Shown: positions 6,807 through 44,804 of the stretch, piece after piece
Position numbering within the stretch: the stretch's first letter is position 1
Layout of the letters: every line of letters starts with the position of its first letter
IMG/VR virus record: IMGVR_UViG_3300009499_000114
Coordinates: 1-64,000 of that record
Direction: 5' to 3' (one strand)
DNA length: 64,000 nt
Source: a virus
Notes under the pieces: generated by a model
Database searches by the model: none
What the model was told of the DNA's origin: nothing
Seen by the model: only the letters and a program-made list of their open reading frames with translations
Program-made: the position numbers and the translations under genes

Positions 6807-6813
6807 AGGTGTC
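6795..6813 (+). repeat. Partial copy of epimerase gene start (pair of 7542-7560)
   Basis: The 19 bases here match 7542-7560 with one mismatch. The second copy contains the real start of the 7546 epimerase gene (MIEGV). The first gives MIEGVLKK and then runs into a stop after about 18 codons. The 6852 gene lies between the two copies, as if inserted with duplication of its target. Confidence 0.6.
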
Positions 6814-6851
6814 TTAAAGAAAGTACAAAGAACACTATACAGAGGTGAAGC

Positions 6852-7553: not shown

Positions 7554-8049
7554 AGGCGTCGTCCTCAAGCCCCTCGTCACCTACCCCGACGAACGCGGCT
7601 TCTTCCGCGAGGTCGTCCGGGCCAGCGATGGATTCTTCGCCGAGGGTTTCGGCCAGCTCTCGCACAGCTTCATGCGGGCTGGCGTCGCCAAGGCATGGCA
7701 CGTCCACAGCCGGCAAGTGGACTGGTGGTACGTCGTGTCCGGCTGCCTCAAGGTGGCGCTGTACGACCTGCGGTACGCGGCACCCTGGCCGGAATTCTCG
7801 GCGTCCCAGGTGGAGCACCGCGAGTTCTCAGATACTGCCGGTGAACTGCTGGAATTGTTCCTCGGTGACGGCCACCCGGCTCAGGTGCTGCGCATCCCGC
7901 CCGGCGTGGCGCACGGGTGCAAGGCGCTGGAGCCGACGCACCTGCTGTATATCACGAGCCTGGAGTACGACGGGACCAACGAGGGGCGGTTGCCGCACGA
8001 CGTTTCGGGCATAGATTACGACTGGCTGAGCGGGCCGGAGGTGACGTAA
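7546..8049 (+). CDS. RmlC-like sugar 3,5-epimerase (cupin)
   Basis: A 167-residue cupin of the dTDP-4-dehydrorhamnose 3,5-epimerase family. Visible family marks are YPDERGFFREVVR near residue 14, SHSFMRAGVAKAWHVH near 43, DWWYVVSGCLKVALYDLR near 62, and IPPGVAHGCKAL near 112. The conserved His of AWHVH and the PPGVAHG loop match the active-site architecture. Such enzymes invert C3 and/or C5 of 4-keto-6-deoxy nucleotide sugars. With the acetyltransferase and aminotransferase at 9209-10998 and the SDR at 42440, it could contribute to an unusual deoxyamino sugar. Length is close to the usual 180 residues. Exact substrate is unknown. Confidence 0.8.
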   Translation: MIEGVVLKPLVTYPDERGFFREVVRASDGFFAEGFGQLSHSFMRAGVAKAWHVHSRQVDWWYVVSGCLKVALYDLRYAAPWPEFSASQVEHREFSDTAGELLELFLGDGHPAQVLRIPPGVAHGCKALEPTHLLYITSLEYDGTNEGRLPHDVSGIDYDWLSGPEVT

Positions 8050-22372: not shown

Positions 22373-23359
22373 ATGAATGGGGTAGCTTACATCTATGGTT
22401 TGTATGACCCTAGAAATGGAGAGCTGCGGTATGTCGGTAAGACAATAGATCTCAAACTTCGTCTTTGGGTACATATGTCAAAGGCGAAAAGCAATGAACC
22501 TGATTTAAAATCTAAATGGATTCGTAAGCTTTTGGCCGAAAACTTAGAGCCAGAAATTAGGATACTAGAAACATCAAATGATAGTAATTGGCCAGAAGCG
22601 GAAAGAAGGTGGATAGCACAGTGTCTTGCGGATGATGCATCACTATTCAATGTATCAGAAGGTGGTGACAATCCACCGGATCATTCGGGCGAGAAGCAAT
22701 CTATTGATCATGTTCAGAAACGTGTTGAGGCCAGACGAAAAAACGGATCTTACTCTCATTCTGCTGAAACGAAACAGAAGATAAGCGAATCCAAGAGAGG
22801 CAGAAATACTGGAAAAGGCAATTCTTTCTTTGGAAGGAAACATTCCGAAGCTTCCAAACAAAAGATGAGCGAATCTAAAAAAGGACGAGAGGCCTGGAAT
22901 AAGGGTATCCCTTGCTCAGATGAGGCCAAGAGAAAGATTAGCGGAGCCAAAAAAGGTACTCATCTTTCAGAGGAAACGAGACGGAAGATGAGCGCGATTC
23001 GACGAGGGCGCAAGCTGTCGCCAGAACATGCTGAGAATATCAGGCAGGCTAACATTGGTAAAAAACTTTCCAATGCTACCAAGCAAAAGCTACGGGTAGC
23101 AAACCTTGGCAAGAAACATACCGAAGAAACCAAGTCAAAATTGAGAGAGATATTCACGGGTAGGGAAGTTTCCGAAGAGACTAGGCAGAGATTGAGCGAA
23201 GCAAACTCAGGGAAACAACGGACGGCAGGACAAAAGCAGCATCAAAGTGAAGCCTTGAAAGCAAGGTGGCAAGACCCTGAATATCGAGAGAAGATGCTGA
23301 ACGCTCAAAGAAAACGTCGGGCTAGGGAACGACAGGAAAAAGAGATTAGCGATGTTTGA
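22373..23359 (+). CDS. GIY-YIG homing endonuclease with NUMOD3 repeats
   Basis: A free-standing homing endonuclease of the Seg/I-TevI type, 328 residues. The catalytic GIY-YIG module occupies residues 1-95: YIYGLYDPRNGELRYVGKT, a downstream Arg in LKLRLWVHM, and the Glu in WPEAERRWIAQ. About eight NUMOD3 DNA-binding repeats follow from residue 120 to 290, each ending in a K/R-x-G-x-K/R type turn (for example KQKMSESKKGRE and RRKMSAIRRGRK). The C-terminus ends in a short basic helix. It cuts an unoccupied allele and spreads itself and nearby DNA. It is AT-rich compared with the capsid gene and has its own promoter, as expected for a selfish insert. Confidence 0.9.
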   Translation: MNGVAYIYGLYDPRNGELRYVGKTIDLKLRLWVHMSKAKSNEPDLKSKWIRKLLAENLEPEIRILETSNDSNWPEAERRWIAQCLADDASLFNVSEGGDNPPDHSGEKQSIDHVQKRVEARRKNGSYSHSAETKQKISESKRGRNTGKGNSFFGRKHSEASKQKMSESKKGREAWNKGIPCSDEAKRKISGAKKGTHLSEETRRKMSAIRRGRKLSPEHAENIRQANIGKKLSNATKQKLRVANLGKKHTEETKSKLREIFTGREVSEETRQRLSEANSGKQRTAGQKQHQSEALKARWQDPEYREKMLNAQRKRRARERQEKEISDV

Positions 23360-28904: not shown

Positions 28905-29328
28905 CAATTCTATGCTTCATGTCAAGATCAATTTATTAGTTGCTGAGCATATCTTCGGCGCTGAACGGGGAGAATACGTGTATGGACCAAAAGAGGCCAT
29001 GCCCGAGGGCACGAGAGAAGAGCAGTGGGCTATACCTCCTGATCAAAGATTGTTCTTTGCCTGGTTTACTCCGCCAGGTGAACGCACTGAACCAATTTTA
29101 GGTTATTGCTACAGGAATTTTTCGGAAGAGATTTCGGAAGCATGGCAAGTAGAAGAACGTCTCACGAAAATGAAACTTCAAGATGAGTACATCAATCATT
29201 TACGTGGGATCGTCAATGCGAATGAATGGGTTGAAAATGAGGAATGGCTGATGGTGCACGCTTCACCGAAGGAACGTTGTCTAGCAGCACTAAGAGCAGT
29301 CGGTGTAGTAATTGAGGAACCGGCATGA
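28897..29328 (+). CDS. ABA-sandwich-like phage hypothetical protein
   Basis: 143 residues, AT-rich. It begins with a helix INLLVAEHIFGAE, similar to the start of the 5818 protein (AWIAEHVFG). It ends with HASPKERCLAALRAVGVVIEE, the A-x-P-x-x-x-C-x-A-A-L closing helix of the phage ABA-sandwich family. Function of that family is unknown. Overlaps both neighbours by a few bases. Confidence 0.5.
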   Translation: MGSNSMLHVKINLLVAEHIFGAERGEYVYGPKEAMPEGTREEQWAIPPDQRLFFAWFTPPGERTEPILGYCYRNFSEEISEAWQVEERLTKMKLQDEYINHLRGIVNANEWVENEEWLMVHASPKERCLAALRAVGVVIEEPA

Positions 29329-30188
29329 ACTATCTACCTGTTTCAGCTTGCACTCTCACCCGCGATGCCTTTGCCGGGGGCTGGTGTCTGTTCGAGTCAA
29401 TGGCTTCGCTATTACCGTTCGTGGAAGAACTCGTGGTGATGGACCTGGGCTCAACCGACGGGACCCTAGAAGCTCTGCGCGAGATCGCGGAAGCCAACCC
29501 TAAGTTCAAGATCATTGCTCGGCCCGATTGGCCCAGAGTTGACGCGGGCGTCCTCTCGGATCTAATGAACGAACTCGTGGAGATTTGCCGCTATGAGCGT
29601 GTATTGTGCTTCGGGTCCGATGAAGTGTGGCACGAGGACCTATTGCTTCGCATGGAAGATCACTTTGAGCAGGGCAAGTTTAACCTGACTTTTTGGCGTC
29701 TCCAGTACCGGGATAATTTCCAAAGTATCAAGTGGCCTGCTCACACGGTGCACAGAGTTGGACTCAAGGGACAACTTGATTTTGTCGACGACGCAATGAT
29801 GACACGGAAGAGGCATGGTGCCGAGCTTTGTTCCCAGTACGGCGGTACAACTTATGATCACGACCCGCAAATGAATGATCCGGAGGGCGCCAAGTCTTTC
29901 GTTCATGACATGATCGTAGATGTGTCCAAGGCCGCCTTTCTTGACAATGCCAAGGTGAAAAGCGAACTGCTCGCCCCATTCTGGCACGAGTCGCCTAACG
30001 TTGAGGGCAAACCGACGGACGAGTGGCTGCACGAGGCGAGGGAGAACCCAGACTGGGCACAGACCGAATCGCCATTTAACCTGCCGAAACTTCTGCGCTG
30101 GCACGTCGGGAGGCCACGGTATGAGTTGCGACCCGAGTTGCTGGAGGCGCTGAAGCGAGACGAGACGAGGAAGCTGCTGGGAATATGA
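29325..30188 (+). CDS. Family 2 glycosyltransferase
   Basis: A 287-residue relative of the 26675 enzyme: SACTLTRDAFAGGWCLFESM, then ELVVMDLGSTDGTLEALREI (nucleotide-binding strand and helix), and LCFGSDEVWHEDLL near residue 95 as the donor-site motif. A His/Trp-rich acceptor region follows, with repeated use of WHE and HVGR. ATGA overlap with the preceding gene. Sugar and acceptor are unknown. Confidence 0.75.
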   Translation: MNYLPVSACTLTRDAFAGGWCLFESMASLLPFVEELVVMDLGSTDGTLEALREIAEANPKFKIIARPDWPRVDAGVLSDLMNELVEICRYERVLCFGSDEVWHEDLLLRMEDHFEQGKFNLTFWRLQYRDNFQSIKWPAHTVHRVGLKGQLDFVDDAMMTRKRHGAELCSQYGGTTYDHDPQMNDPEGAKSFVHDMIVDVSKAAFLDNAKVKSELLAPFWHESPNVEGKPTDEWLHEARENPDWAQTESPFNLPKLLRWHVGRPRYELRPELLEALKRDETRKLLGI

Positions 30189-30518: not shown

Positions 30519-31187
30519 ATGCACAAAGAAGCGAAAGAAGAAGAGGCGAAAGTGACGTCAGGGGACGACACCAGAATCCTGATCCTTGCGGGCGGTAAGG
30601 CAGGTCAGGATCACAAATCTTGGCAGGACAAAAGGGAACGGTTCTTGCTGCCTATCGCTGGCGAACCGTTGCTCCTGCGCACCACCCGATTATGCCGGCA
30701 ACTCGGATATCTGCCGACGATTGTGACCAGTATTCCCGCGGTTCAGGTTGCGGTGGGAAGATATTTCAATCCCGGCCCGAACAAATATGTCTGGGACACG
30801 ATACGCGGCACCCGCGAACTGTGGCGGAAGCGCACCGTATTCCTGGTGGGTGACGTGCTTTTCTTCACCGACACGCTTGAGCGGATCTTGACTTCACGGG
30901 AAACCTGCTCCTGGGAAGGAACCTGGGGAGGAGACACTTTCGGTGTGATCGCGGTCGTCTTCAACGACGAGAAGTGGGAGACCGTCTCAGGCTGGTGCGA
31001 ACTCGCCTGGCAGGAAGCTGAGCGAAGGGGCAACAGCGTCCTCCAGATTCTCAAGCAGTTGAAGTTGATCGAGAACGTGATATACGATGACGCGCGGGAC
31101 GACGTGTATGACTTTGACCTGGTCCGATATTGGGAAGAGTGCGTAACACGCTTTCCGTGGATACTGGGCAATGAACCTCAGGACTAA
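30519..31187 (+). CDS. Nucleotidyltransferase-like protein (GT-A type)
   Basis: 222 residues. The glycine-rich nucleotide loop ILILAGGKAGQDHKSW (residues 20-35) with a downstream RFLLPIAGEPLLLRTTRL is the signature arrangement of MobA/LicC-type nucleotidyltransferases, though the usual R-x-x-P-x-T-x-x-x-P-K consensus is altered. VFLVGDVLFFTD near residue 110 carries the metal-binding acidic position. It is homologous along its length to the N-terminal half of the 35690 gene (IAGEP, then WDT, then TRELW). It opens the first nucleotidyltransferase-PhnD-PhnE module. Confidence 0.65.
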   Translation: MHKEAKEEEAKVTSGDDTRILILAGGKAGQDHKSWQDKRERFLLPIAGEPLLLRTTRLCRQLGYLPTIVTSIPAVQVAVGRYFNPGPNKYVWDTIRGTRELWRKRTVFLVGDVLFFTDTLERILTSRETCSWEGTWGGDTFGVIAVVFNDEKWETVSGWCELAWQEAERRGNSVLQILKQLKLIENVIYDDARDDVYDFDLVRYWEECVTRFPWILGNEPQD

Positions 31188-31590
31188 ACGGGTAGTGTTC
31201 ACCTCGGGCGTGTGGGACTTGCTGCACGAGGGGCATCGTAACCGCCTACGAGGGGCGAAGGCCCTGGGCGATACATTGGTGGTGGGGATAGTCACCGACG
31301 AGTTTGCAAGGTCGTATAAAGACCCGCCCGTCTGGGATTACGAACGGCGCTTTGAGGAAGTGGTCAGTTTGCCCTACGTGGACATCGCCGTTCCGCTTGG
31401 GGGGTTTACAGACTATTGGGCCATCGAAGAATATGGGGTAAGTGTACGGGTGATCGGCCCTGAGTACGGGCGGTTTACGGGCCAGGTAGAGGCTCGGGCT
31501 GAACTTGAACGGCGGGGCATCAAGTTTGTCGTCTTGCCCCGCACCCCGGGGATTTCGTCTACCCAATTACGAAAGAAAACGGAGGTTTGA
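31171..31590 (+). CDS. Cytidylyltransferase (TagD/HldE-C type)
   Basis: A 139-residue nucleotidyltransferase of the HIGH superfamily. The N-terminus VVFTSGVWDLLHEGHRNRL shows the HxGH motif (HEGH), and TPGISSTQLRKK near the end shows the ISST motif. These two define cytidylyl/adenylyltransferases such as TagD (CTP:glycerol-3-phosphate) and the HldE C-terminal domain. It activates a small phosphorylated compound as a CMP (or ADP) derivative. It is followed with no gap by a PhnD-like substrate-binding lipoprotein, which suggests that the imported compound, or one made from it, is its substrate. Substrate is not deducible here. Confidence 0.85.
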   Translation: MNLRTKRVVFTSGVWDLLHEGHRNRLRGAKALGDTLVVGIVTDEFARSYKDPPVWDYERRFEEVVSLPYVDIAVPLGGFTDYWAIEEYGVSVRVIGPEYGRFTGQVEARAELERRGIKFVVLPRTPGISSTQLRKKTEV

Positions 31591-32415
31591 ATGAAGAACT
31601 TGTTGATTGCGCTTATCCTGACCGTCCTGGCCGGGTGCGCCCCGCAAACTAGATCTTTGACCTACGTCATCATCCCGGCCGAGGAGGCCGTAAAATCGCA
31701 GGGGCAATTTGAGCCGTTCGTTGAATACCTCTCCGGCAGACTGGGGCGCGAGGTGGAGTTGATGGTCGTGTCCGACTACGCGGCCGTGGTCGAGGCCATG
31801 AAGTACGGTCACGCCGACATCGCCAGGTTTGGCCCCTTCAACTACGTCCTAGCTATGCAGGAGGCAGACATTGAAGTCCTCGTGGCAGGAATCAAAGAAA
31901 ATACCATGGGGCCGTCTTATCACGCGCTGATTATCGCCCGGGCCGACCGGGGCGTCACCGACTTGGAGGGGAAGTCCTTTGCATTCTCGGATGTGGGCTC
32001 GGCTTCGGGCTATCTGGCTCCCATGACGTATTTGCAGGAAAACGGGATACAGCCTGGCGAGATATTCTTCTCTGGCTCGCACAGTGCGTCCATCGAGGCT
32101 GTTAGGAATGGGACCGTGGACGTCGCGGCCCTAGCCGACAATCGCTACCTGGAGGCGCTAAAGGAAGGCGTCATCAATATAGGAGAGTTCGTCATCTTGT
32201 GGGAATCTAGCCCCATCCCGAATTCGCCCATCGCGGTCCAGAAATCAATGGACCCGAACCTGAAGGCGCAAATCTTGGGAGCATTCCTCGAAGCGCCAAG
32301 GGAGATTGTGGAGGGACTGGGCATCGGGGAAGTCGACTACGTTAGGATACAGGACAGTGACTATGACATCATCCGGCAGATGCAGGAGACGCAGGAACGC
32401 CTGGCTGGGGATTGA
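31591..32415 (+). CDS. PhnD-like phosphonate-type binding lipoprotein 1
   Basis: A 274-residue ABC-transporter solute-binding protein. A lipoprotein signal (MKNLLIALILTVLAGCAPQ; the LAGC lipobox) is followed by ADIARFGPFNYVLAM near 75. SDVGSASGYLAPMTYLQENG near 130 is the ligand-binding S-x-S-G-Y loop of the PhnD family, with Ala where Thr is usual. FSGSHSASIEAVRNGTVDVAA near 155 carries the conserved His. It would capture a phosphonate, phosphate or related oxyanion outside the membrane. It begins at the base after the cytidylyltransferase stop. No ATPase gene is present in the window. Confidence 0.85.
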   Translation: MKNLLIALILTVLAGCAPQTRSLTYVIIPAEEAVKSQGQFEPFVEYLSGRLGREVELMVVSDYAAVVEAMKYGHADIARFGPFNYVLAMQEADIEVLVAGIKENTMGPSYHALIIARADRGVTDLEGKSFAFSDVGSASGYLAPMTYLQENGIQPGEIFFSGSHSASIEAVRNGTVDVAALADNRYLEALKEGVINIGEFVILWESSPIPNSPIAVQKSMDPNLKAQILGAFLEAPREIVEGLGIGEVDYVRIQDSDYDIIRQMQETQERLAGD

Positions 32416-33157
32416 AGTCCTCGCCCTCGTAGTTCTTTTCTCGTGGTCAATCGGCGGCGTCGCGGACGACCTGTCGCGCATCCTTGTGGGGTTCCCGTTC
32501 ATCTGCGATTATCTTGCGGGGATGATCCCGCCCGACTGGTCAATCCTGCCGGAACTTTGGGGACCATGGGTTGAAACGTTAAGAATGGCAATCCTGAGCA
32601 TCATGTTGGCGTCTGTGATTGCGTTACCGCTCTCATTTCTGGCCGCGGTCAGTACGACATCTAACATCTTAACATACGCAATGGCACGGAGTCTCATCAA
32701 CTTATTTCGGGGCTTGCCAACCTTGTTACTGGCTATCTTGTTCGTGGCAATGGTTGGGCTTGGGCCTTTGGCCGGGGTATTTGCGCTGACCTGTCACTGC
32801 ATCGGGTCGTTGGGCAAGTATTTCTCGGAGGCCATCGAGGCCACGATACCCGTAGTAACCGACATTATGGAAGCCATGCAGGTAGATGGGGCCAGCAGGG
32901 GCTTGGCTCTTTGGTATGGATTGTTGCCCGAGATAGCGCCACTGTTCGCTGGCTACATCCTGTACTACTTTGAGTGGGCGTTAAGAGTTGGAACTGTGAT
33001 GGGTCTGGTCGGGGCCGGGGGCCTTGGATTATACCTGACAATGACGGTGCGCCTGTTCAAGCGGCAGCAGACGCTGGCGGTCGTGCTGGTCATCCTGGCT
33101 ACCGTGACGGCGGTGGACGTGCTGAGCTACGTTGTGCGCTCAAGGTGGATTGATTGA
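32363..33157 (+). CDS. PhnE-like ABC transporter permease 1
   Basis: Integral membrane permease of the phosphonate-type ABC importer, with about five to six hydrophobic segments. The cytoplasmic EAA loop, which docks on the ATPase, reads EAMQVDGASRGLALWYGLLP near residue 180, keeping the DGAS...G....LP core. The ATG at 32363 is chosen within the end of the binding-protein gene; the frame extends upstream to a GTG at 32306. The basic start (SSGRCRRRRN) suits an inside N-terminus. It must use a host ATPase (PhnC-like) or one encoded elsewhere on the phage. Confidence 0.8.
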   Translation: MTSSGRCRRRRNAWLGIEVLALVVLFSWSIGGVADDLSRILVGFPFICDYLAGMIPPDWSILPELWGPWVETLRMAILSIMLASVIALPLSFLAAVSTTSNILTYAMARSLINLFRGLPTLLLAILFVAMVGLGPLAGVFALTCHCIGSLGKYFSEAIEATIPVVTDIMEAMQVDGASRGLALWYGLLPEIAPLFAGYILYYFEWALRVGTVMGLVGAGGLGLYLTMTVRLFKRQQTLAVVLVILATVTAVDVLSYVVRSRWID

Positions 33158-33888
33158 TGAATGATTGCAGGATATTTGTACCCGTATCAAACCGCTTTCA
33201 ATGGGAACTTGGGCCGTTCTTTCATCTGTTCAACAAGTTTTGGGACGCAAACCTTCCAGTTACGGTACTGAGTTCGAGAAAGCCGAATTTCCAGTTTGAA
33301 AATCTGGAATACGTGCAAGTTCCGGGCCATCTTTTCCAGGAAGGCGATTGGTACTGGGGCTTGTTCGGGAACGGAATAAAGTGGTTTCTCGAGCAGATAC
33401 CGGAGTCAAATGTAATCATCATGATGGCTGATCACTGGCCGAAAGAGCCCGTGGACACCGAGACCATCGCTATCCTGCTGGAGTACGCTTCTGATCACAA
33501 AGATGTTTTCCGCATCTCCCTGTTTCCCCATCATGCATTATCGGTCCTGGAACGCACTGAAATATATAAGGGAGTTGAACTTTGGGAGTGCCCTGGCCAC
33601 CAGCCGGGATGTTTCCTCTTGATGAGCCTAGTACCCGCGATATGGAACAGGGATTTACTGATTGAGGCGGTAAAAGAGGACTGCGGCCCGTGGGAGTTTG
33701 AAGCTTTAGGCTCAAATATACTGAAGGCGAAATCCCCTGGCCTCAGGCACATCATTTCAATCCCGCAGGCTATCTATTATGCTCACGTCGCCCGCACCAG
33801 GGCGAAACAGATCCACTTGAGCGCCATGCCCGCGAATCTCGCCGAGGAAATTAAGAAATGGATTCCCAGCGACATCCAAGTAAAATAG
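33154..33888 (+). CDS. Glycosyltransferase-like hypothetical protein
   Basis: 244 residues. The N-terminal MNDCRIFVPVSNRFQWELGPFFHLF, a central VIIMMADHWPKEPV (a strand ending in an acidic motif like a donor site) and CGPWEFEALGSNIL near residue 190 recall capsule and lipopolysaccharide transferase families of GT-A type. No family can be named with confidence. ATGA overlap with the permease gene before it; 31 bases overlap with the methyltransferase after it. Confidence 0.4.
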   Translation: MMNDCRIFVPVSNRFQWELGPFFHLFNKFWDANLPVTVLSSRKPNFQFENLEYVQVPGHLFQEGDWYWGLFGNGIKWFLEQIPESNVIIMMADHWPKEPVDTETIAILLEYASDHKDVFRISLFPHHALSVLERTEIYKGVELWECPGHQPGCFLLMSLVPAIWNRDLLIEAVKEDCGPWEFEALGSNILKAKSPGLRHIISIPQAIYYAHVARTRAKQIHLSAMPANLAEEIKKWIPSDIQVK

Positions 33889-35099
33889 CCTGCCTGGTCT
33901 GTGGTGGCCCAGTCGAGCCATTCCTGGACCTGGGTAGGATGCCCCTCGCGAATGGATTTGTCCTGCCCGACGAGTTCAGTTCTGAATATTTCTACGATCT
34001 GAGAGTCGGGTTTTGTTCAGGCTGCATGATGGTTCAATTAACGGAAGTCGTGGAACCCGAAAGGATTTTCCACGACCGCTACCCATTCTATTCATCCAGT
34101 TCGGCAGGAATGGTAAAGCACTTCAGAAAGTTCGCAGGTGAAGTTCTTGAGTCCATTCAGGAAAAAGTAAATCCTTTCGTGGTTGAAATCGGCAGTAACG
34201 ATGGGACCCTGTTGCGTCATTTCGCTGATGCCGAAGTACGGCACCTTGGCATTGACCCCTCGACGAACGTCGTTCAGGTAGCAATCAACAGAGAGATAGA
34301 CACACTCTGTCGATTTTTCAATGAGGACACGGCGCGCCAGGTAGTAGCAGACCATGGTCAGGCTGACGTAATCCTGGCCGCGAACGTATTGCGGCACATG
34401 GCTGACCTGAATTCCAAGGTTCTGGGAATTAAATCGCTGCTCAATCCGGGGGGGCGTCTCATATTTGAAGAACCGTACCTGGGTGATATCATTGATATGG
34501 CGTCCTACGACCAGATATACGACGAGCACGTCTTCTATTTTTCTGTTATCTCAGTGTGTAATCTTTTCAAGCGGCACGGGATGGAAGTGATAGACATCAG
34601 GCATCAGAACGTGCATGGGGGGACCATGCGCTTCACAGTCGCCCACGAAAATGTTTACCAGCCCTCTTGGGTTGTGAGACTTCAACGAAGATACGAGAAA
34701 ATAACTGGATTGCACGAACTGGAAACTTATGAAACTTTTTCTTTCCGTACTGAACTTTCGCTTGCCAGACTCGAGGAACTATTAAGGGACCTGAAAAAGA
34801 AAGGGAATCGCGTCATCGGGTATGGCGCAAGCGCCAAGAGCACAATTGTGATCAATAGCTGTGGTATCACGTCCGACGTGATTGAATTCATCGCGGATAC
34901 CACGCCCGAGAAGCAGGGTAAATGCAGCCCCGGGAATCACATCCCTGTGCGGCCCCGAGAGGCGTTCACCTCGGATTACCCAGATTATGCGCTGCTGTTC
35001 ATCTGGAATCACTGCGAGGAAGTCTTGAAAAAAGAGCGAGATTTCAAGGCCGCCGGCGGCAAATGGATAGTGTACGTGCCAGAAGTGAGGATATTATAA
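33858..35099 (+). CDS. Sugar C-methyltransferase (zinc-binding, TylCIII/NovU type)
   Basis: 413 residues with the three-part build of SAM-dependent C-methyltransferases of deoxysugar biosynthesis. The N-terminal zinc domain has CLVCGGPVEPFLDLG and FCSGCMMVQL with four cysteines. A central Rossmann domain has FVVEIGSNDGTLLRHFADA as SAM-binding motif I (residue 110). A C-terminal domain has YGASAKSTIVINSCGI and FIADTTPEKQGKCSPG. These enzymes methylate C3 or C5 of keto-deoxy nucleotide sugars. The gene shows a conventional length and intact motifs. It supports the view that unusual branched or methylated sugars are made. Confidence 0.85.
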   Translation: MDSQRHPSKIACLVCGGPVEPFLDLGRMPLANGFVLPDEFSSEYFYDLRVGFCSGCMMVQLTEVVEPERIFHDRYPFYSSSSAGMVKHFRKFAGEVLESIQEKVNPFVVEIGSNDGTLLRHFADAEVRHLGIDPSTNVVQVAINREIDTLCRFFNEDTARQVVADHGQADVILAANVLRHMADLNSKVLGIKSLLNPGGRLIFEEPYLGDIIDMASYDQIYDEHVFYFSVISVCNLFKRHGMEVIDIRHQNVHGGTMRFTVAHENVYQPSWVVRLQRRYEKITGLHELETYETFSFRTELSLARLEELLRDLKKKGNRVIGYGASAKSTIVINSCGITSDVIEFIADTTPEKQGKCSPGNHIPVRPREAFTSDYPDYALLFIWNHCEEVLKKERDFKAAGGKWIVYVPEVRIL

Positions 35100-35690
35100 T
35101 CGGGGATGTAAAATACTTGACACCGGGTCTCATCGAGAACTTGCGACAGAAAGCCGTAGATTGCGAACTGCTCGGAGATGGTCACCTAGATGGTCTCTTT
35201 CTCAATGATACGAAGCGCATCTATTATCGATTCTTGTATTTCCTAGTCCAAGAATTGCAGCCCGCGATTTCCGTCGAACTCGGGATAGGCTGGGGAAGGC
35301 GGCACCGCTCACCTGGCTGCTGGTTGGCCGGAAGGCAAGGTGTTTGGAGTAGATGTCCAGGTGCACAGAGGTTGGCCGATATCTACCAAGCCGTATGACA
35401 AAATCACTCTCCTGTTAGGCAGGTCAGACGCGCCCGATATTCTAGCCCAGTTTGAAAATGACAGCGTCGATCTGTGTTTCGTGGACAGTGATCATGCTGG
35501 AGTATATGTGTTGCGGGAAGTTGAATTGTGGACGCCGAAAATGCGCGATGGCGGGATATTCGTCTTTGACGATTTGGATCTTGACGCGGGGATGAAAGAG
35601 GTGCTGCCGGCATTGCCTTTCAGGCAAAAGGGTAATTTGCCCGGCTTGCACTACATGGGATTCGGTTATGCAGTGGTGGAGAAAACTTAG
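35063..35690 (+). pseudogene. Frameshifted CmcI-like methyltransferase
   Basis: The frame from ATG 35063 reads through AISVELGIGWG and then derails. A +1 change near 35292-35296, in the GGGG before GAAGG, restores a second frame reading GGTAHLAAGWPEGKVFGVDV. That frame continues to 35690 (VDLCFVDSDHAGVYVLREVELW, then GGIFVFDDLDLD). The joined product would closely resemble the intact 39420 protein (SVELGVCGAGGSLHLCLGWPEG). The break lies in a homopolymer, so a sequencing error is as likely as a true mutation. If real, the first module has lost this methyltransferase. Confidence 0.7.
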
Positions 35691-36994
35691 TGAAAACATT
35701 GGTCTTAAACCTTTGCGCTGGGCTGATGGGGGATGCGCATTATTCCTGGCGGCACGAGACACCCCGCCACTTGATGCAGATCGCGGGGGAACCCCAGGTC
35801 CGTCGGACATTGCGCCTCGTCCGTAGATTTGGTTTTGACGCCATCACGGTCACCAAGAGTCAGCGCATCAAGGATGTCGTGAAGAACATTTTTGAACCAG
35901 CGGAAGACTATCTGCTGTGGGACACGATGCTCAGCACCCGCGAGCTTTGGGACCAGGCAGACCGGGTCGTCTTTATTCTGGGTGACCAGGTCCTATATGA
36001 AGATTTTTTACGAGATTTATTTGGCTGGGAAGGGTCTTGTGTCTATGAAGCCGATCATGGCCCTCCTGCTGCCATCTTTGCACGGGAAGATTACGACAAA
36101 TGTGAAAAGGGGTTGAGGCATCTCAAAGAAACCCAGAAACTCTACCAAGATTGCATGCAAAATGTTGAAGGCTTTATAGTAATAGTACCTAGATACAAAA
36201 AAAGGAGTTTGCCCGATCTGGATAACACGAGAATATGGGACGCCTGGGTTGCAAAAGAGCCCTGGGTTCTGGAAAGGCCAAAGCCCGTGCTGGTCTACCT
36301 CGCTGCGGGAAGGGCCTCGCGTCTCAGTCCCACGTCTGACGCCTGCCCCAAGGCGATGGTTGAGGTAGGGGGCAAACCCCTGGTAGGGCGGGTGCTGGAT
36401 GAGTTCCTGAAATACGGTCTGGGACTCATCGTGGTCTCGGTGGGATATAAAGGCGACCAGATCGAGTCCTACCTGGGCTCCGCGAGAGGAGGCGTACCTA
36501 TCAAGTATGTCAATTGCCCAGACTACGAGAACGTCGGATCCGGGACTTCCTTCCGTCTCGCGAAGGATTATTTGGTAGAGAGAGACTGCTTCCTGGCCGA
36601 AGGCGACTTCTTGCTGTCCCCCGACCTGGTGCGGCGGCTCGCTATTTCGCCGTACCAGGACTGCGGAATCACCGACCCGTGCCTGCCAGAAGCCAGGGAC
36701 CGGGGCGTATTCGCTTTCGGACAAGGGGGGCTGATCGAACGCATCGTGGCCCCCTATGACTTGGACTACGACCCCGCTCTACAGCCCGACTCCCTGGGTG
36801 AAATGCCCCACGTCTTCAAGTTTTCCCGGGGGGCGGTAGAAATCCTGCTAGAATTCATTGACGAGCAACTGGTCGATTCGGTCAACGCTGTAATGCAGAG
36901 GCTTCCGGTGTACTCAATTCCCGCCGGCGAATCGGCGTGGGCGCACATTAATACAGAGAAGGGCCTTGATTATGCACAGAAAATCGTTGCATAA
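35690..36994 (+). CDS. Double nucleotidyltransferase fusion (LicC/PntC-like C-terminus)
   Basis: 434 residues, two related halves. Residues 1-195 are homologous to the 30519 protein (IAGEPQVRRTLRLVRRFG, LLWDTMLSTRELW, FILGDQVLYEDFL). Residues 200-434 are a classic nucleotidyltransferase: VLVYLAAGRASRLSPTSDAC then PKAMVEVGGKPLV, with CPDYENVGSGTSFRLAKDYL and FLAEGDFLLSPDL downstream. That last pattern resembles LicC-type CTP:phosphocholine and PntC-type phosphonate cytidylyltransferases. Its neighbours, PhnD and PhnE immediately downstream, make activation of an imported phosphonate-like compound as a CMP ester plausible. GTG start overlaps the previous stop. Confidence 0.7.
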   Translation: MKTLVLNLCAGLMGDAHYSWRHETPRHLMQIAGEPQVRRTLRLVRRFGFDAITVTKSQRIKDVVKNIFEPAEDYLLWDTMLSTRELWDQADRVVFILGDQVLYEDFLRDLFGWEGSCVYEADHGPPAAIFAREDYDKCEKGLRHLKETQKLYQDCMQNVEGFIVIVPRYKKRSLPDLDNTRIWDAWVAKEPWVLERPKPVLVYLAAGRASRLSPTSDACPKAMVEVGGKPLVGRVLDEFLKYGLGLIVVSVGYKGDQIESYLGSARGGVPIKYVNCPDYENVGSGTSFRLAKDYLVERDCFLAEGDFLLSPDLVRRLAISPYQDCGITDPCLPEARDRGVFAFGQGGLIERIVAPYDLDYDPALQPDSLGEMPHVFKFSRGAVEILLEFIDEQLVDSVNAVMQRLPVYSIPAGESAWAHINTEKGLDYAQKIVA

Positions 36995-37016
36995 GGCTAT
37001 TCAAAAGGAGAGTGAT

Positions 37017-37892
37017 GTGAAAGGTCGGTATTTGATTTTGGTAAGTATCCTGATCGTGGTTCTGTTGTCTGGCCTGGGTTTTCTGGCCTATCGTTCATTA
37101 TGTGTCCCCGAAAGGGAAACTATAACGTTCGTATTCCATCCAGGGGAATCGATGGAACTGGGGGTCTTGAAGGAAAACTTTGGGCCTATCTTTGTAGCAT
37201 TGTCCGCAAAATTGGATATGGACTACGATGTTAAACTCGGGTCGAGTTACGCGGCGACGATGGAATCCCTGCGCAACGGCACGGCGGACGTTTCCCGCAT
37301 CGGATCATCCATGTATGTACTGACCAGGGACGAGATTGACTTTAGATTAGTCGCCTGGGATATCATGGACGGCGAGGACCATTACCACGCCGTACTACTG
37401 GGCAGACCCGGCATCTGGGAGGAGCCGTTCACGTTTGAACAACTGAGAGGCAAGACGGTCGCCTTCGTGGATCCGAGTTCTACTTCTGGATACATTGCTC
37501 CTATGACCGCGATGCTAGACGCGGGGGTCGCGCTTGAGGACCTGGGCAAGTATTCATTCGGGACGACGCATCCAGTTGCAATTGAGGCCATGCTCAATGG
37601 TGTAGCAGACGTGGCTTGCACCGGGGACGCCATGATACCCGAGATTGAGGACTCTGGGTCACTTGAGGGAGAAGATTTCATCGTGCTGTGGGAATCGCCC
37701 CCATTGGTGATGGATGTTTGGGTCATCGGTCCAGGCGTTGGAACTGAAAAAGCTGATAGAATTGCCGAGGCACTGCTTAATTTACCCGATGAAGTATTTG
37801 AGGGTTGCTGGATCGACGGTTTCTCGCCAGTGGATTTGAGCGCCTATGAATTCAGTGAGAAGATGCTTCGGGCGGTGGGTGAAATTGAGTGA
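37017..37892 (+). CDS. PhnD-like phosphonate-type binding protein 2
   Basis: A second solute-binding protein, about 291 residues from the GTG at 37017, which follows AAAAGGAG; an ATG at 36972 is possible. The N-terminus is a hydrophobic anchor (YLILVSILIVVLLSGLGFLA) instead of a clear lipobox. Family marks include NGTADVSRIGSSMYVL near residue 88 and FVDPSSTSGYIAPMTAMLDAG near 155, the S-T-S-G-Y phosphonate-binding loop in its full consensus form. FGTTHPVAIEAMLNGVADVA follows near 182. It diverges strongly from the first PhnD (31591), so a recent simple duplication is unlikely. The ligand could differ between the two. Confidence 0.85.
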   Translation: MKGRYLILVSILIVVLLSGLGFLAYRSLCVPERETITFVFHPGESMELGVLKENFGPIFVALSAKLDMDYDVKLGSSYAATMESLRNGTADVSRIGSSMYVLTRDEIDFRLVAWDIMDGEDHYHAVLLGRPGIWEEPFTFEQLRGKTVAFVDPSSTSGYIAPMTAMLDAGVALEDLGKYSFGTTHPVAIEAMLNGVADVACTGDAMIPEIEDSGSLEGEDFIVLWESPPLVMDVWVIGPGVGTEKADRIAEALLNLPDEVFEGCWIDGFSPVDLSAYEFSEKMLRAVGEIE

Positions 37893-38650
37893 GATTCGTT
37901 CTGGTAATCCTGGTCGTCCTATCACTAGCACTATGCGCCCTGGGCGGCCTGGCGGAAGGGATAGTGAGAGCGGGCGGATATTTGGCCCGACTCTGGCCGC
38001 CCGATCTGCGGTATTTCCCGAAGCTCGTCCCCGCCATCGTGGATACTCTGCTCATGTCGCTCGCGGGTACGACCCTGGCCATGCTCTCGGCAATCCCACT
38101 GTCGTATTTCGGGAGCAGGGACCTGGTGGGCAACCCGGTCCTGTACGCTACGACCCGCTTTGTGATGTCCGTGATGCGGGCTACGCCCGTCCTCGTCCTG
38201 GGCATCATGTTCGTCGCCGCGCTGGGGATGGGCATGACGGCCGGGATACTGGGCCTCTGGTTTCACTGCACCGGGGCACTGGGCAAGTTCATGTCAGAAT
38301 CCCTGGACGCAGCGGACAAGTCAGTACGAGAGGCGGCGATCATGGACGGGGCATCGCGGTGGGAAACTTACGCCTACGTGCTGCTGCCGATGCAGGTGAA
38401 CGCTTACCTGTCCTTCTACCTGTACTACATAGAATCGAACTTCCGTTCCGCCGTCGTCCTAGGAGTCGTCGGGGCGGGTGGGATCGGGTTGGAACTTATC
38501 ACAGTGATCGGCATGTTTAAGTATCACCGCATCGGGCTCATCGTCCTGCTGGTCATCGCGGTCGCGCTCGCCCTGGACTTCCTGAGCCGGTGGGTCAGGG
38601 GAAGATTCCTTAAGGAATACGGAGATGTCAGCACAACATCAGCTCTATGA
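37889..38650 (+). CDS. PhnE-like ABC transporter permease 2
   Basis: A 253-residue permease with about six membrane segments (for example RFVLVILVVLSLALCALGGL at the start). The EAA loop is REAAIMDGASRWETYAYVLLP near residue 148, matching the family consensus better than the first permease. The GTG start overlaps the PhnD2 stop (GTGA), showing tight coupling of the pair. No ATP-binding subunit is encoded nearby, so a host subunit would have to complete the transporter. Confidence 0.85.
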   Translation: MRFVLVILVVLSLALCALGGLAEGIVRAGGYLARLWPPDLRYFPKLVPAIVDTLLMSLAGTTLAMLSAIPLSYFGSRDLVGNPVLYATTRFVMSVMRATPVLVLGIMFVAALGMGMTAGILGLWFHCTGALGKFMSESLDAADKSVREAAIMDGASRWETYAYVLLPMQVNAYLSFYLYYIESNFRSAVVLGVVGAGGIGLELITVIGMFKYHRIGLIVLLVIAVALALDFLSRWVRGRFLKEYGDVSTTSAL

Positions 38651-39413
38651 ATCGAAACTGGCCTGTCCTGTGTGTCACGGGAAGTTCTTGGATGGGCTGC
38701 GAGACGCGGTCCAGTGTGAGGAGTGCTCGCTAATCTATCCCGTGATGAATGGCACCTACAACCTTGTGCCACCGGGGATCCTGAACGATTCGCGCTTCCA
38801 GTTCGAGCTAGAGCGCTATGACCAGATCGCCGTAGCCGGCCTGAGGGCATACCCGGGGTACTTGGCGACCCGCCCAAAGGAACGAGCGGAACTTATAGCA
38901 GACCTGCTGAGAGCGCATCAGGTAAAGGAATTTGTAGAAGTCGGCCCAGGTTTCGGATCTCTGCTAGATAGAACGAGGGGCTTGAAACGGACGGCCGTCG
39001 AGCTGAGTACTGCATTCCTAACGCACCTTGCGGTGCGCCTGGGTGAACCCGATATGTGCCTTGTAAAAGGCGTCGCTGAATATCTGCCCCTGGCATCTGG
39101 CACGGTTCCTTGCCTAGTGATGGACGGTACCTTTCAGAGCATCGTAGACCGGGAACGGTTTTTGTACGAGGTGTCACGGATCTGTGCTCCCGGCGCAATG
39201 TTCGTCTTCACAGTTGCATATGGGCACAACTACCCACGTCGCCCGCAGAATGGGTTCAATGTGAACCGGCCCGACGAGCTTGAAACACTGCGTCATTTCT
39301 TGGAGGAATTGGGTTTTGATATGGAATTCCGGTACCGCGACCTGGGCGCGGGGAAATGGGTACAGATCAAGGATGAAGGCGATTATCTTTACATGGTTGG
39401 AAGGAAATCCTGA
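38625..39413 (+). CDS. SAM methyltransferase with Trm112-like zinc domain
   Basis: 262 residues. An N-terminal Trm112/UPF0434-like zinc module (LACPVCHGKFLDGLRD with VQCEECSLIYPVMNGTYNLVP) precedes a class I methyltransferase. Motif I there is FVEVGPGFGSLLDR near residue 105 and is followed by TAVELSTAF. The later sequence PLASGTVPCLVMDGTFQSI is the motif IV region. Target unknown; its neighbours suggest a sugar or nucleotide-linked product. It overlaps the permease by 26 bases. Confidence 0.7.
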   Translation: MSAQHQLYESKLACPVCHGKFLDGLRDAVQCEECSLIYPVMNGTYNLVPPGILNDSRFQFELERYDQIAVAGLRAYPGYLATRPKERAELIADLLRAHQVKEFVEVGPGFGSLLDRTRGLKRTAVELSTAFLTHLAVRLGEPDMCLVKGVAEYLPLASGTVPCLVMDGTFQSIVDRERFLYEVSRICAPGAMFVFTVAYGHNYPRRPQNGFNVNRPDELETLRHFLEELGFDMEFRYRDLGAGKWVQIKDEGDYLYMVGRKS

Positions 39414-39419
39414 ACGGAG

Positions 39420-39986
39420 ATGAATGAATCCTGGTTTGAGCAACTGGCCGACCGGGCCTACGCATTAAGGCCCTACCCAGATCCGAGGTTTCCACCGTCG
39501 GCGTACTATCGTTTTCTGCGGTTGTTGGCTGAAGAGATGCGCCCAAATCTATCAGTTGAACTGGGAGTTTGCGGTGCCGGGGGCAGTCTACACCTGTGCC
39601 TGGGGTGGCCGGAGGGAATCGTAGTCGGGGTAGACGCAGTTCCTGAAGATGCAGGGGAATGGGTAGAACGCAAGGCCTACGTCAAGGGACTCTGCCCGAA
39701 CTTCCGGTTCTGGTATGGCGATTCTTCGGAATCCGCTTCCGAGATACATGAGCAGTACGGAAACGTTGACATCTTGTTTATTGATACGACCCATACTTAC
39801 GAACAGACACAGCGGGAGTTTGCGGCATGGCAGCCCTACCTGTCCGACCGTGCAGTAGTCTGTCTGGACGATTTGGTTTTCCCGGGCATGAATCGGATTT
39901 GGGCTGAGTTGCCCGGGAAGAAAGTTTTCCTTGATATACTAAACGGCAAAGAAAATTTCGGTGTGGTCTACGATTTGAAAAAATGA
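39420..39986 (+). CDS. CmcI/Methyltransf_24-like methyltransferase
   Basis: 188 residues, similar to the cephalosporin-hydroxylase-type (CmcI) methyltransferases that appear in many polysaccharide clusters. SAM motif I is NLSVELGVCGAGGSLHLCLG (residues 42-61). VDILFIDTTHTYEQTQREFAAW near 118 and AVVCLDDLVFPGMNRIW near 145 match the metal-dependent acidic motifs of the group. It is the intact counterpart of the frameshifted 35063 gene and closes the second nucleotidyltransferase-PhnD-PhnE-methyltransferase module. Confidence 0.7.
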   Translation: MNESWFEQLADRAYALRPYPDPRFPPSAYYRFLRLLAEEMRPNLSVELGVCGAGGSLHLCLGWPEGIVVGVDAVPEDAGEWVERKAYVKGLCPNFRFWYGDSSESASEIHEQYGNVDILFIDTTHTYEQTQREFAAWQPYLSDRAVVCLDDLVFPGMNRIWAELPGKKVFLDILNGKENFGVVYDLKK

Positions 39987-40002
39987 AAGGGAAAGATTCG
40001 TA

Positions 40003-41763
40003 ATGGACATCAGCATCGTCTCGGGAACTTACAATCGCCTTCCGTTTCTCAAACGCATGGTCGAGACCGCCCGGAGTTCACTCAAAATTCTCTCTGGCCT
40101 GACCCATGAGTTCGTATTGGTTGACGGGGGTAGCCAGGATGGGACGCAGGACTGGTGCCGGGCGCAATCCGATGTACGGCTGATTGAACACGAAAAACTT
40201 TTTGGCGCGGTCAAGGCGTTCAACGACGGGGCTTTCGCGGCGCACGGTGACTATGTGGTCCTGGCGAACGACGACGTGGAGTTCCTGGGCAACACGCTGG
40301 CCCTGGGATGGATATATATGCAGGATCATCCCGACTGCGGGATAGGCTGCTTCTACCAGGACCGCAACAAACGAGACTGGCACGTTGAAAGCATGCCGGT
40401 CGTACGCGACGGCCGGCAGGAGCACGCGCCCTACGGCCAGGTGTGCATCGTGCCCAAATGGCTAGGCGACCGCGTGGGATGGTGGGGCGATTATCTGCAT
40501 ACCTATGGTGGAGACAATGAACTTAGTTCACAGGTATATGCATTAGGTTTCAAGGTCTCACCAGTCCCGGATACGAAAGTTCACGACAACGAACCCGATG
40601 ACGATCTGCGGCGCATCAATAATATTACGGGCGGGAAGGACCCGCGGGCAGTGGCGGGCCACCACCCGGATTCCTGGAAGTGGGGCAAGAGGTGGCGCAA
40701 CGAGGCCGAGAACTTGGTCGGTCCGGTCATCCGGGATGCGCCTGCCGTGGAATTTCCTTTCTCGGTCGTGAAGGAACGGGTACTCTACCTTCCGGTGTAT
40801 GAGCAAGGATGGCCTGTTCAAAAAGAACAGAAACGGGGCCTGCGCGAGGCATTGGGACGGGTGACGTTGGTTTCCGAGTACGACTATCTGACGCGAGATG
40901 CGGAAATAGGCGGGGCGGCGATGTTGGCTGAACTTCAGCGATTATGCCAGGAATCACAGCCCACGCTGGTGCTGACCCAGATCCACAACTCGGACGTCAT
41001 CAGCCCCGACGGAATTGGGACGTTGCGCAGGGCAGTTCCCAATGCCCGCTTCGTCAACTGGAATGGCGACTTCTGGCCCGACAATCTGCTGAGCGAAGCG
41101 GGGCTGCGGCTGGCGCGGTCGTTTGACTTGCAGACGACCGTCAACCGCGACGCGCTGGAGAAGTACCGTGAGCAAGGCATCCGGGCCGAGTACTGGCAGA
41201 TCGGGTGGGAGCCCGACGGCGTGGGGCACGAGCCGGAGGAACGCTTCGACCTGGTATTCCTAGCGAGCGGGTATTCCCCTGCGCGGCACAAGCTGGTCGG
41301 GTTCCTGCGCAACCTGGCCGACGTCAAGTTCGGCCTGTGGGGTCCGGGCTGGCCCGACGGCTGGGCCAGGGGCCAGAACGTCTACGACTTCGTTGAGGCT
41401 TGCAGGTGCTACCGGGGCGCCAAAATCAGCCTGGGCGACAGCCAGTGGCCCGATTCTGGCTTCGTCAGCAACCGCGTCTTCCAGGCGCTGGCGGCGGGGG
41501 GCTCGGCCCTGGCATACCAACGGTTCAGGGGCATGGAGGAATTGGGCCTGGTGGATGGCGAAACGGTCATCGTCTGGGAAGACCATGGCAGCCTGGAGGC
41601 AAAGGTCAGATACTTTCTGGCGCACGAGGTCGAGCGGCAGCGCATCGCACGGGCGGGCGAGGCCCTGGCGCTGAACCGTCACTCGTTCGACAACCGGGTG
41701 CAGGAACTGTTCGGGTGGGTCGGCGCGAGGGAGCAGCCCCAAGAGGAGAACTGGCGGTGGTGA
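40003..41763 (+). CDS. Bifunctional glycosyltransferase (GT2 plus GT-B)
   Basis: 586 residues. The N-terminal 250 residues form a family 2 transferase: [35 protein letters not shown], and the donor motif [13 protein letters not shown] near 85. From about residue 265 a GT-B type domain follows ([20 protein letters not shown]), with [13 protein letters not shown] near 350 and a conserved C-terminal [20 protein letters not shown], typical of CgeB-like transferases. Two transferases in one chain could add consecutive sugars. GAAAGGGAAAG precedes the ATG. Confidence 0.8.
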
Positions 41764-42443
41764 TGGAGTTGGATACTATCGTTGTGGGTGACTGCCTAGA
41801 CGTGATGGCGGGGATGCCGGACGGGTGCGTGGATCTGGTGGTGACTGATCCATTGTTTGTATTACCTGTCCATACTGCTGCCTCGCGTAAGCGAATAAGA
41901 AACCTGGGAGATTTCTCACCATCTAGTTGTCAGATGTCTATAGTTTTTGAACAATTAGAACGCATTTGTAAATCATCAAGCAGATTATTCTTTTTCTGCG
42001 ACGACAAATTCTATCCTATATTATTTATAATGAGCTATGAGCAGTGGTATCTACAACTCTTGGTGTGGGATAAAGGACGTATAGGTTTTGGCACTGATTT
42101 CAGGAAACAGTTTGAAATGATTCTTTATCTTCGGGGAGAAGATGCACCGTTATTAGAGCGTAAGAATAATAAATCTGATGTCTTGAAATGTACGCCGGTT
42201 CCATCGGGGGAGCGATTGGTAGAAGCACAAAAACCCGAAAATCTGATTCTGGATTTGCTCGATGGTATTCCCGGTGATCTAATCTTTGATCCCTTTGTTG
42301 GTTCCGGTACTACCGCCGTTGCAGCCCTCAAGCTGGGCCGTCATTTCTATGGCTGCGACATCAATCCCGACTACGTGAGGCTGGCGAACGAGCGGATCAA
42401 GAAAACGCGCCTAGAGATGGCGCAGATGGAGATGGAACTATGA
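41763..42443 (+). CDS. DNA methyltransferase, D21 class N4/N6 type
   Basis: 226 residues from the ATG at 41763. The N-terminus [20 protein letters not shown] and motif IV region [13 protein letters not shown] are followed by motif [21 protein letters not shown] near 175. Motif IV reads DPLF where active enzymes of this group have DPPY or similar, so activity is uncertain. The first 28 and last 30 residues closely match those of the minus-strand methyltransferase at 58950, but the middle differs and is AT-rich. It probably modifies phage DNA against restriction. Confidence 0.7.
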
Positions 42444-43402: not shown

Positions 43403-44804
43403 CATCAGCATCTTGATCCCCGTTCACGCGGACACTCCGCAGAAAGTGGGCTGGCTGGCCGAGGCGCTGGAATCCCTGAAAGCCCAGACATTCGTGGACT
43501 TTGAGGTGCTGATCGTGGACGACTTGTCGCCACTGAGCCTCGACGCGGTCAAGGCGGACACCGACGGGCGCTTCCGCTGGTTCCGCACGTCGGAATTGAG
43601 CGGGCCCGCCCGCTGCCGGAACACGGCGGCAAATCTTGCCCGGGCCGAAGCGCTGCTGGCACTAGACGCCGACGACCGGCTTGCCGAACCGGAGACACTT
43701 GAAGTATACTTCGAGGCGTGGAGGAACGACCAGAAGCGCGTCGTGTACGGGGACATACAAAGGTTGGAAGCCAGCAAGGACGGTTCGTTCAACTTGAGCA
43801 AGGTTTTCAACCTGCCCGAGTATACCTTCGAGGGCGTGATGAGGCTGAACGGCATCATCCCCGTCACGGCGATGCACTCAAAGGAATGCCACCTGGCGGC
43901 GGGCGGCTGGAAGCCGGAGCTGGACGCGGGCCTGGAGGATATCGAGTACTGGATCGCGGCTGGCAAGGGCGGGTTCTGCGGGCACCGGATCGACGCGGTG
44001 ACGTTGCTCTATCGTCGCCACGAGCAGAGCCGCGCGTTCAAGCTGAGACGGGTTAACCGGCGCGAATCCGAGATGCGGAATGCAATTCGCATGTTGCATC
44101 GAGACGTCTACGAGGGGAGGTTTCCCATGGGGTGTTGCAGTGGCGGTAGTAGTGGTGGATCCGGGCAGCCGGCGTTGGCATCGGCCAGGGCTAGCACGAC
44201 CGCTAGTCAACCCACGACGCTGGACCAGTTTGCGGGCAGCGAAAAAGTTTGGGTGCAGTATAACGGCAAGCGGATGGCAGCCTTCGGCGTGACCGGGGTG
44301 TTCACCGGGATGTCGTACAAAGTCGACGGGCCGGGTCACAAGCTGGAGGTGCACGTCAACGACGTGAGCAAGTTCCGGCGGGCCGGGCGTGGGAAGGACT
44401 TCGCAGTGGGCGTCGCGGCCCCGACGACCGGCGTACCTGATATGCCGGGCGAGCCCCCGGTTGAAGAACAACCGCCGGAACCGTACAAGGCTCCCGACGT
44501 GCAACTGGCGACCATCGAGCGGCTGGACGCGATAGGGCACGGGCGGGAGCCTCGGCCACGGCAACCGCAACCGGAACCCGAACCGTCGCTAGAGCCCGAA
44601 CCACAGGGTGGTCCTGGTTCGCTGGCGTCTTTGGACCTGGGCAACCTAGCGGGCATGCTGGAGCGTGATGGGTGGACGGTCGAGGCGTTGGCGACGGCTG
44701 AGGTGGATGAGCTGATATCCTACCGGGGTGTTGGGCCGGTGCGGGCCAGCCAGGTCATCGGCAAGGCGAGGGACAAGCTGGGGATGAAACGGGAGGCGGC
44801 GTGA
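43395..44804 (+). CDS. Family 2 glycosyltransferase fused to HhH phage protein
   Basis: 469 residues from TTG 43395, chosen because GAGGAG lies upstream and the product then starts [13 protein letters not shown], the normal beginning of a GT2. The transferase spans residues 1-235: TFVDFEVLIVDDLSPLSLD, and donor motif LLALDADDRLAEP near 90. From residue 245 a different protein follows: a Cys/Ser/Gly start (MGCCSGGSSGGSG), a beta domain (VWVQYNGKRMAAFGVTGVF), a Pro-rich linker and a helix-hairpin-helix (YRGVGPVRASQVIGKARDKLG). A strong internal start at 44127 suggests two genes joined in frame. Confidence 0.65.
   Translation: MPDISILIPVHADTPQKVGWLAEALESLKAQTFVDFEVLIVDDLSPLSLDAVKADTDGRFRWFRTSELSGPARCRNTAANLARAEALLALDADDRLAEPETLEVYFEAWRNDQKRVVYGDIQRLEASKDGSFNLSKVFNLPEYTFEGVMRLNGIIPVTAMHSKECHLAAGGWKPELDAGLEDIEYWIAAGKGGFCGHRIDAVTLLYRRHEQSRAFKLRRVNRRESEMRNAIRMLHRDVYEGRFPMGCCSGGSSGGSGQPALASARASTTASQPTTLDQFAGSEKVWVQYNGKRMAAFGVTGVFTGMSYKVDGPGHKLEVHVNDVSKFRRAGRGKDFAVGVAAPTTGVPDMPGEPPVEEQPPEPYKAPDVQLATIERLDAIGHGREPRPRQPQPEPEPSLEPEPQGGPGSLASLDLGNLAGMLERDGWTVEALATAEVDELISYRGVGPVRASQVIGKARDKLGMKREAA
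44127..44804 (+). CDS. Nested HhH phage protein with own ribosome binding site
   Basis: AGGGGAGG ends six bases before an in-frame ATG at 44127, giving a 225-residue product starting MGCCSGGSSGG. It holds the beta domain, Pro/Glu/Gln linker and HhH motif only. Small Cys-starting proteins with this beta domain and a terminal HhH occur near head genes of other phages, as far as I recall. It may therefore be a structural or DNA-binding protein to which the transferase became fused. Confidence 0.55.
   Translation: MGCCSGGSSGGSGQPALASARASTTASQPTTLDQFAGSEKVWVQYNGKRMAAFGVTGVFTGMSYKVDGPGHKLEVHVNDVSKFRRAGRGKDFAVGVAAPTTGVPDMPGEPPVEEQPPEPYKAPDVQLATIERLDAIGHGREPRPRQPQPEPEPSLEPEPQGGPGSLASLDLGNLAGMLERDGWTVEALATAEVDELISYRGVGPVRASQVIGKARDKLGMKREAA

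Follow-up and report, generated by a model that had tools for sequence, protein, structure and literature searches.

Phosphonate-type importer genes have been found in phages before. A provirus carrying the full phnCDE set has been published (PMC9061769), phnD has been reported among the phosphorus genes of soil phages (PMC10987575), and phage phosphonate-uptake genes are usually read as nutrient scavenging. PF01467 and PF12804 are the two nucleotidyltransferase Pfam families enriched with phosphonate biosynthesis (PMC6697681). Here we analyze a stretch of 64,000 nucleotides (the window), bases 1-64000 of the 78,578-base IMG/VR record IMGVR_UViG_3300009499_000114 (G000), which represents a tailed phage. 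Two paralogous modules, A and B, lie head to tail on one strand at 30519-39986 (9.5 kb), and their genes mostly overlap. Both encode, in the same order, a nucleotidyltransferase, a PhnD binding protein, a PhnE permease, a methyltransferase, and a CmcI-like methyltransferase. We put the probability at roughly 0.5 that these are two "import and activate" modules, which would take up a small organophosphorus compound and activate it with cytidine triphosphate (CTP) for a glycan.

What speaks most for a functional link, at the level of sequence, is the exchange of enzymes in the slot before PhnD. A PF01467 enzyme occupies the slot in module A and an unrelated PF12804 enzyme occupies it in module B, and these folds are the two known to activate phosphonates. 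The module A enzyme, here called CT (31171-31590), is a cytidylyltransferase of the TagD/ECT/Fom1 type (PF01467, E = 4e-12) with intact catalytic motifs: HxGH in the form HEGH, the SYKxP segment, and RTPGISST. Its closest sequences in the Protein Data Bank (PDB) are ethanolamine-phosphate and glycerol-3-phosphate cytidylyltransferases. More remote is PDB 5x3d, which is annotated as a phosphoenolpyruvate phosphomutase and probably corresponds to the Fom1 cytidylyltransferase domain. The module B enzyme, 35690 (35690-36994), is a fusion. Its C-terminal half, from about residue 200 onward, is a MobA/LicC/sugar-1-phosphate-type nucleotidyltransferase (PF12804, E = 9.5e-18), and its AGRASR...PK segment corresponds to the LicC/PntC motif GXGXRX4-8PK, with the arginine and lysine retained and alanine at the third position.

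The N-terminal half of 35690 is homologous to NT1 (30519-31187), a stand-alone, divergent MobA-like protein that opens module A (E = 8e-20 in pairwise comparison). The original prediction had proposed this homology and had called both proteins nucleotidyltransferases. The homology is confirmed and the second designation holds for 35690 through its PF12804 match, but NT1 and the N-terminal half of 35690 are only weak, divergent relatives of PF12804, in which ER or PR replaces PK and the catalytic lysine is gone. The active-site residues are intact in CT and in the C-terminal half of 35690 (R...PK), but not in the NT1-type domains, which may have a regulatory or structural role or a different kind of catalysis. 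Scans of viral contigs and genome contigs found no relatives of the NT1-type domain lacking the PK lysine beyond this phage. Both copies (30519-31187 and 35690-36274 of the window) match PHROG 33187 weakly. The AlphaFold model of 35690, built from an alignment of two sequences, has a predicted local distance difference test score (pLDDT) of only 34.

The module repeat is a case of true homology, well past chance. PhnD1 and PhnD2 are 31% identical (E = 1.5e-33), PhnE1 and PhnE2 are 36% identical (E = 2e-33), and the two pieces of the module A CmcI-like gene match the module B copy with E-values of 6e-6 and 3e-7. The gene order and tandem duplication that had been predicted were borne out: every gene lies at its predicted position on the + strand, and pairwise homology confirms the repeat. 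The module A CmcI-like gene (35063-35690) is indeed broken. A single frameshift interrupts it near 35282-35297, either through decay or through an error of assembly. Its module B counterpart (39420-39986; Methyltransf_24) is conserved in a relative of the phage, G009 (51%). The other methyltransferases are a sugar C-methyltransferase-like protein in module A (33858-35099; Methyltransf_13/23/14) and a class I methyltransferase in module B (38625-39413; Methyltransf_11), with an N-terminal Trm112-like stretch that falls below the Pfam cut-off. The module A protein at 33154-33888, originally described as glycosyltransferase-like, matched no Pfam or PHROG family, so that description is unproven and the family is left unassigned; a homologue occupies the corresponding place in G009.

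The permeases are recognizable members of the PhnE family. PhnE1 (32306-33157, with a likely ATG start at 32363; PF00528, E = 1.5e-11) scores 234.1 bits against the PhnE equivalog model TIGR01097, and PhnE2 (37889-38650; PF00528, E = 6e-18) narrowly passes with 217.1 bits, the cut-off being 216.7 bits. A point absent from the original prediction is that the ATPase is missing: no PhnC or other ABC ATPase (PF00005) is encoded in the 78.6-kb record or in the record of the second phage described below (G010). As a cellular yardstick, 80 loci were found through PhnE similarity and their 6-kb flanks were fetched; PhnC and PhnD are present in all 80, and a relative of CT, NT1, or LicD in none. Because the E-A...G...P coupling loop, which contacts the ATPase, is largely retained in the phage PhnE proteins, a borrowed host ATPase would be the simplest assumption. 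The three phage PhnE proteins (PhnE1, PhnE2, and that of the second phage) share five residues, each of them found in no more than two of the 90 cellular proteins compared, including a cysteine after a conserved histidine and an aspartate in the coupling loop. Among 300 random triples of cellular PhnE sequences, 295 had no such private column and five had one.

The binding proteins are of the PhnD type. PhnD1 (31591-32415; lipobox LAGC) scores 203 bits (E = 6e-60) and PhnD2 (36966-37892) 149 bits (E = 2e-43) against PF12974, where the cut-off is 27 bits, and the N-terminal hydrophobic segment of PhnD2 is likely a membrane anchor. TIGR01098 is reached by PhnD1 (192.9 bits) and just missed by PhnD2 (104.3 versus 112.05 bits), and neither reaches the cut-off of the PhnD equivalog TIGR03431. 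We compared PhnD1, the PhnD of the second phage, and PhnD2, with Escherichia coli PhnD as the ruler for numbering. All three keep Y47, Y93, S127-x-S129, and H157, which bind the oxygens on phosphorus. None has the HtxB hypophosphite signature (Trp, Asn, and Phe; oxygen-3 site); Tyr, His, and Ser are kept. In phosphite binders the pocket is capped by D22/Y208 of Te_PtxB (PMC5700983); in the three phage proteins the D/Y cap is replaced by A/S, A/A, and G/D. Seventy cellular relatives have the D/Y cap and none of these lies near carbon-phosphorus (C-P) lyase genes, while the three cellular loci that do contain C-P lyase genes have the caps A/S (Thiothrix), V/S, and T/D. The 2-aminoethylphosphonate tail site of the E. 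coli protein, T14/E177/D205, is not matched (A/N/S, A/N/A, and G/A/D); D205 by itself is retained in PhnD2, but the E177/D205 pair is not present as such. An intact head site without the phosphite and hypophosphite signatures makes an organophosphorus ligand plausible, in keeping with the predicted binding of phosphonates or related oxyanions. These residues favor a compound with a tail and disfavor phosphite and hypophosphite. The predicted model of PhnD1 (pLDDT 93) matches the structures of PtxB, HtxB, GpxB, and PhnD; among viral predicted structures its matches are limited to distantly similar binding proteins, of which several are Bug-type. In the PhnD tree, PhnD2 sits on a long branch and is loosely placed, a single phage clade not being rejected (p-AU 0.62).

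The association recurs in one further, different phage. Contig IMGVR_UViG_3300024263_000002 (L028, 40.9 kb), from a siphophage, has the order CT-PhnD-PhnE, with a LicD-type gene upstream and a glycosyltransferase-like gene without a Pfam match also present; the cassette has prohead protease/capsid genes on one side and head-tail genes, further downstream, on the other. Its proteins are 44% (CT), 60% (PhnD), and 58% (PhnE) identical to those of the window, PhnE1 pairs with the L028 PhnE in the tree with full support, and the best cellular PhnE reaches at most about 41-43% identity. The L028 CT has the motifs HIGH and RTPRISS. Its reading frame (6385-7026) runs on into phnD (6764-7642), and the end or frame of CT is perhaps disturbed. 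Of 76 other viral contigs with a CT gene (L112-L188), 14 also have a LicD relative within about 6 kb of it, a raw count that suggests a possibly recurrent phage pairing of CT and LicD. When viral contigs were scanned for close relatives of PhnD1, PhnD2, 35690, and the NT1-type domain, there was no match. The only isolate match for PhnD1, Pseudomonas phage Y12 (OQ572413.1, an unverified record), was rejected as probable host contamination, since the record holds a bacterial phn operon from phnC to phnI with 67-75% DNA identity to E. coli. PhnE matches in records of Staphylococcus phage "Kay", one of them 282 kb, look like host DNA and were set aside.

Nine relatives of the phage were found through the terminase (46-58% identity), most of them fragments and the longest, G009, 64 kb. 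None has a match to PhnD, PF01467, or PF12804. The nucleotidyltransferase families are therefore present in the two records with PhnDE and absent from the nine without, and in this small sample of 11 records they come and go with PhnDE. In G009, syntenic glycosyltransferase genes flank an epimerase, a methyltransferase, and a B12 radical SAM protein. The last, a B12-binding radical SAM protein at 36518-37888 (L018, 17518-18888), lies in the syntenic variable glycan island.

We propose the following sequence of events. A membrane-tethered PhnD would capture a small phosphonate or phosphate monoester, and PhnE, energized by a PhnC-like ATPase of the host, would carry it across the inner membrane. 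The adjacent nucleotidyltransferase (PF01467 in module A and PF12804 in module B) would then couple the compound to cytidine monophosphate (CMP) or a similar nucleotide, and the activated group, methylated or not, would be put onto a glycan built by the phage glycosyltransferases. No phosphoenolpyruvate (PEP) mutase (PF13714) is encoded by the phage itself, by the second phage, or by the relatives G009 and G003, so the phage would import the compound and not synthesize it. The glycan is perhaps on the virion, as suggested by the position of the L028 cassette among virion genes, the alternative being the host surface. More tentatively, it is possible that phages salvage organophosphonates from the environment or the host periplasm by way of a PhnDE without its own ATPase and an ATPase of the host, make CMP-phosphonates, and decorate virion or host-surface glycans by means of LicD-like or glycosyl transferases, with no need for PEP mutase. 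If the genes described here do feed nucleotidyl activation, some phage genes now called nutrient scavengers would have to be re-examined, phosphonate tailoring would acquire a salvage route free of PEP mutase, and phages could alter the chemistry of surfaces with an unusual group that resists hydrolysis. PhnD1, PhnD2, CT, and 35690 are concrete proteins with a testable shared ligand.

Several observations weigh against import coupled to activation. Only two phages carry the module, the phage of the window has no LicD, 50 other viral CT records contain no PhnD, and most of the nine relatives without PhnDE are fragments. CT falls below every NCBIfam equivalog cut-off, and the NT1-type domains may be inactive. 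The C-terminal half of 35690 scores higher with sugar-1-phosphate nucleotidyltransferase families than with LicC/PntC, and module B may for that reason merely activate a sugar. The cassette is also part of a variable glycan island, and neighboring cargo in such an island may be unrelated. The predicted role in bringing in and activating a phosphonate-like group for a glycan is partly supported by the gene association, the CT motifs, and the PhnD head residues; against it stand the resemblance of the C-terminal half of 35690 to sugar-1-phosphate enzymes and the fact that nothing separates a phosphonate from a phosphate ester, while the glycan acceptor is conjectural.

One rival, which we judge rather unlikely, is that PhnD and PhnE are phosphorus-scavenging auxiliary proteins that boost host uptake of phosphonate or phosphate for phage DNA synthesis, the nucleotidyltransferases separately making sugar nucleotides. 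The published phage phnD genes (PMC10987575) and proviral phnCDE (PMC9061769) fit this explanation, as do the resemblance of 35690 to sugar-1-phosphate enzymes and the glycosyltransferase-rich surroundings. However, PhnC is lacking in both phages, the PhnD cap is unlike that of phosphite binders, and PhnD follows a nucleotidyltransferase gene in modules A and B as well as in L028. Nor was the C-P lyase PhnJ found in the phages for release of phosphate, though the host could supply it. Alternatively, the cargo could be glycerol phosphate or ethanolamine phosphate, from which CT would make CDP-glycerol or CDP-ethanolamine for teichoic acid-like or phosphoethanolamine decoration. The nearest PDB relatives of CT point this way, and the PhnD-like protein GpxB, which binds glycerol phosphates (PMC12718374), matches the PhnD1 model; the serine of PhnD1 at the E. 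coli D205 position occupies the position of GpxB Thr247. We nevertheless regard this as unlikely: CT misses the TagD equivalog TIGR01518 by a wide score difference (68.4 versus 165.4 bits), and the cap residues also fit a C-P lyase-linked PhnD, as in Thiothrix (A/S). It is very improbable that PhnD and PhnE do not transport at all and act as envelope decoys or as a block on a second phage (superinfection exclusion). The absence of an ATPase gene, the PhnD1 lipobox, the hydrophobic segment of PhnD2, and the private aspartate in the PhnE coupling loop would be compatible with such a role, but the ligand-binding residues are conserved in three of three phage PhnD proteins, the coupling motif is largely kept, and the nucleotidyltransferase linkage would be left unexplained.

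The wider genome contains a terminase large subunit gene (600-2036) and a tape measure protein gene (51277-53748); the capsid and portal of this phage were searched for and none was identified. A DegT aminotransferase, an NAD epimerase, and six glycosyltransferase-like genes are situated between the terminase and an actin-like gene by the right end (ALP_N, MreB-like_C; L003, 11705-12694, - strand), which suggests that the phage partitions like a plasmid or is positioned within the cell. The cassette is flanked by a GT2 glycosyltransferase (29325-30188, +) and a two-domain glycosyltransferase (40003-41763, +), syntenic in G009 at 49% and 56%, respectively. An assembly chimera was rejected as an explanation: the flanks at 29325 and 39420-41763 are syntenic in G009, which carries different cargo between them, and the base composition of the 30.5-40 kb cassette is not deviant. 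A homing endonuclease-like gene (22373-23359) adjoins the presumed structural block, and DNA methyltransferase-like genes are dispersed over the same genome (window 41764-42443, 44801-46822, and 58950-59975; L003 1596-2315 and 8723-10231).

Searches of PubMed Central, whose coverage leaves out most subscription journals, found no phage system joining a phosphonate-type importer to nucleotidyl activation, in agreement with the original prediction, and no earlier description of an ATPase-less, nucleotidyltransferase-linked PhnDE. The phage proteins share with the PhnCDE/PtxABC importers (PhnT family, TC 3.A.1.9) homologous PhnD and PhnE, a passed TIGR01097 threshold, and intact PhnD head-binding residues. 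They differ in lacking PhnC, in the nucleotidyltransferase linkage, in A/S, A/A, or G/D in place of the phosphite D/Y cap, and in the private PhnE residues. GpxB, the glycerol-1-phosphate/glycerol-3-phosphate binding protein (PMC12718374), is likewise a PhnT-family protein without an aromatic cap and is matched by the PhnD1 model in Foldseek (E = 2.7e-23); however, its Arg/Thr tail pair is not clearly present in the phage PhnD proteins, and identity is 25%. The Pnt and Lic pathways (PntC/LicC activation, LicD-type transfer, and the Fom1 cytidylyltransferase; PMC6697681) employ the identical two nucleotidyltransferase Pfam families, and LicD stands beside CT in the second phage. In contrast to those pathways, the phage cluster has no PEP mutase, its compound would be imported, it lies in a phage, and the substrates of its enzymes are putative. 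The proviral phnCDE and phage phnD (PMC9061769, PMC10987575) are also phage-borne phosphonate-type importer genes, but they are complete sets or lone genes that have been interpreted as serving nutrient uptake, whereas the modules described here consist of PhnDE without PhnC, duplicated and accompanied by nucleotidyltransferases, methyltransferases, and glycosyltransferases.

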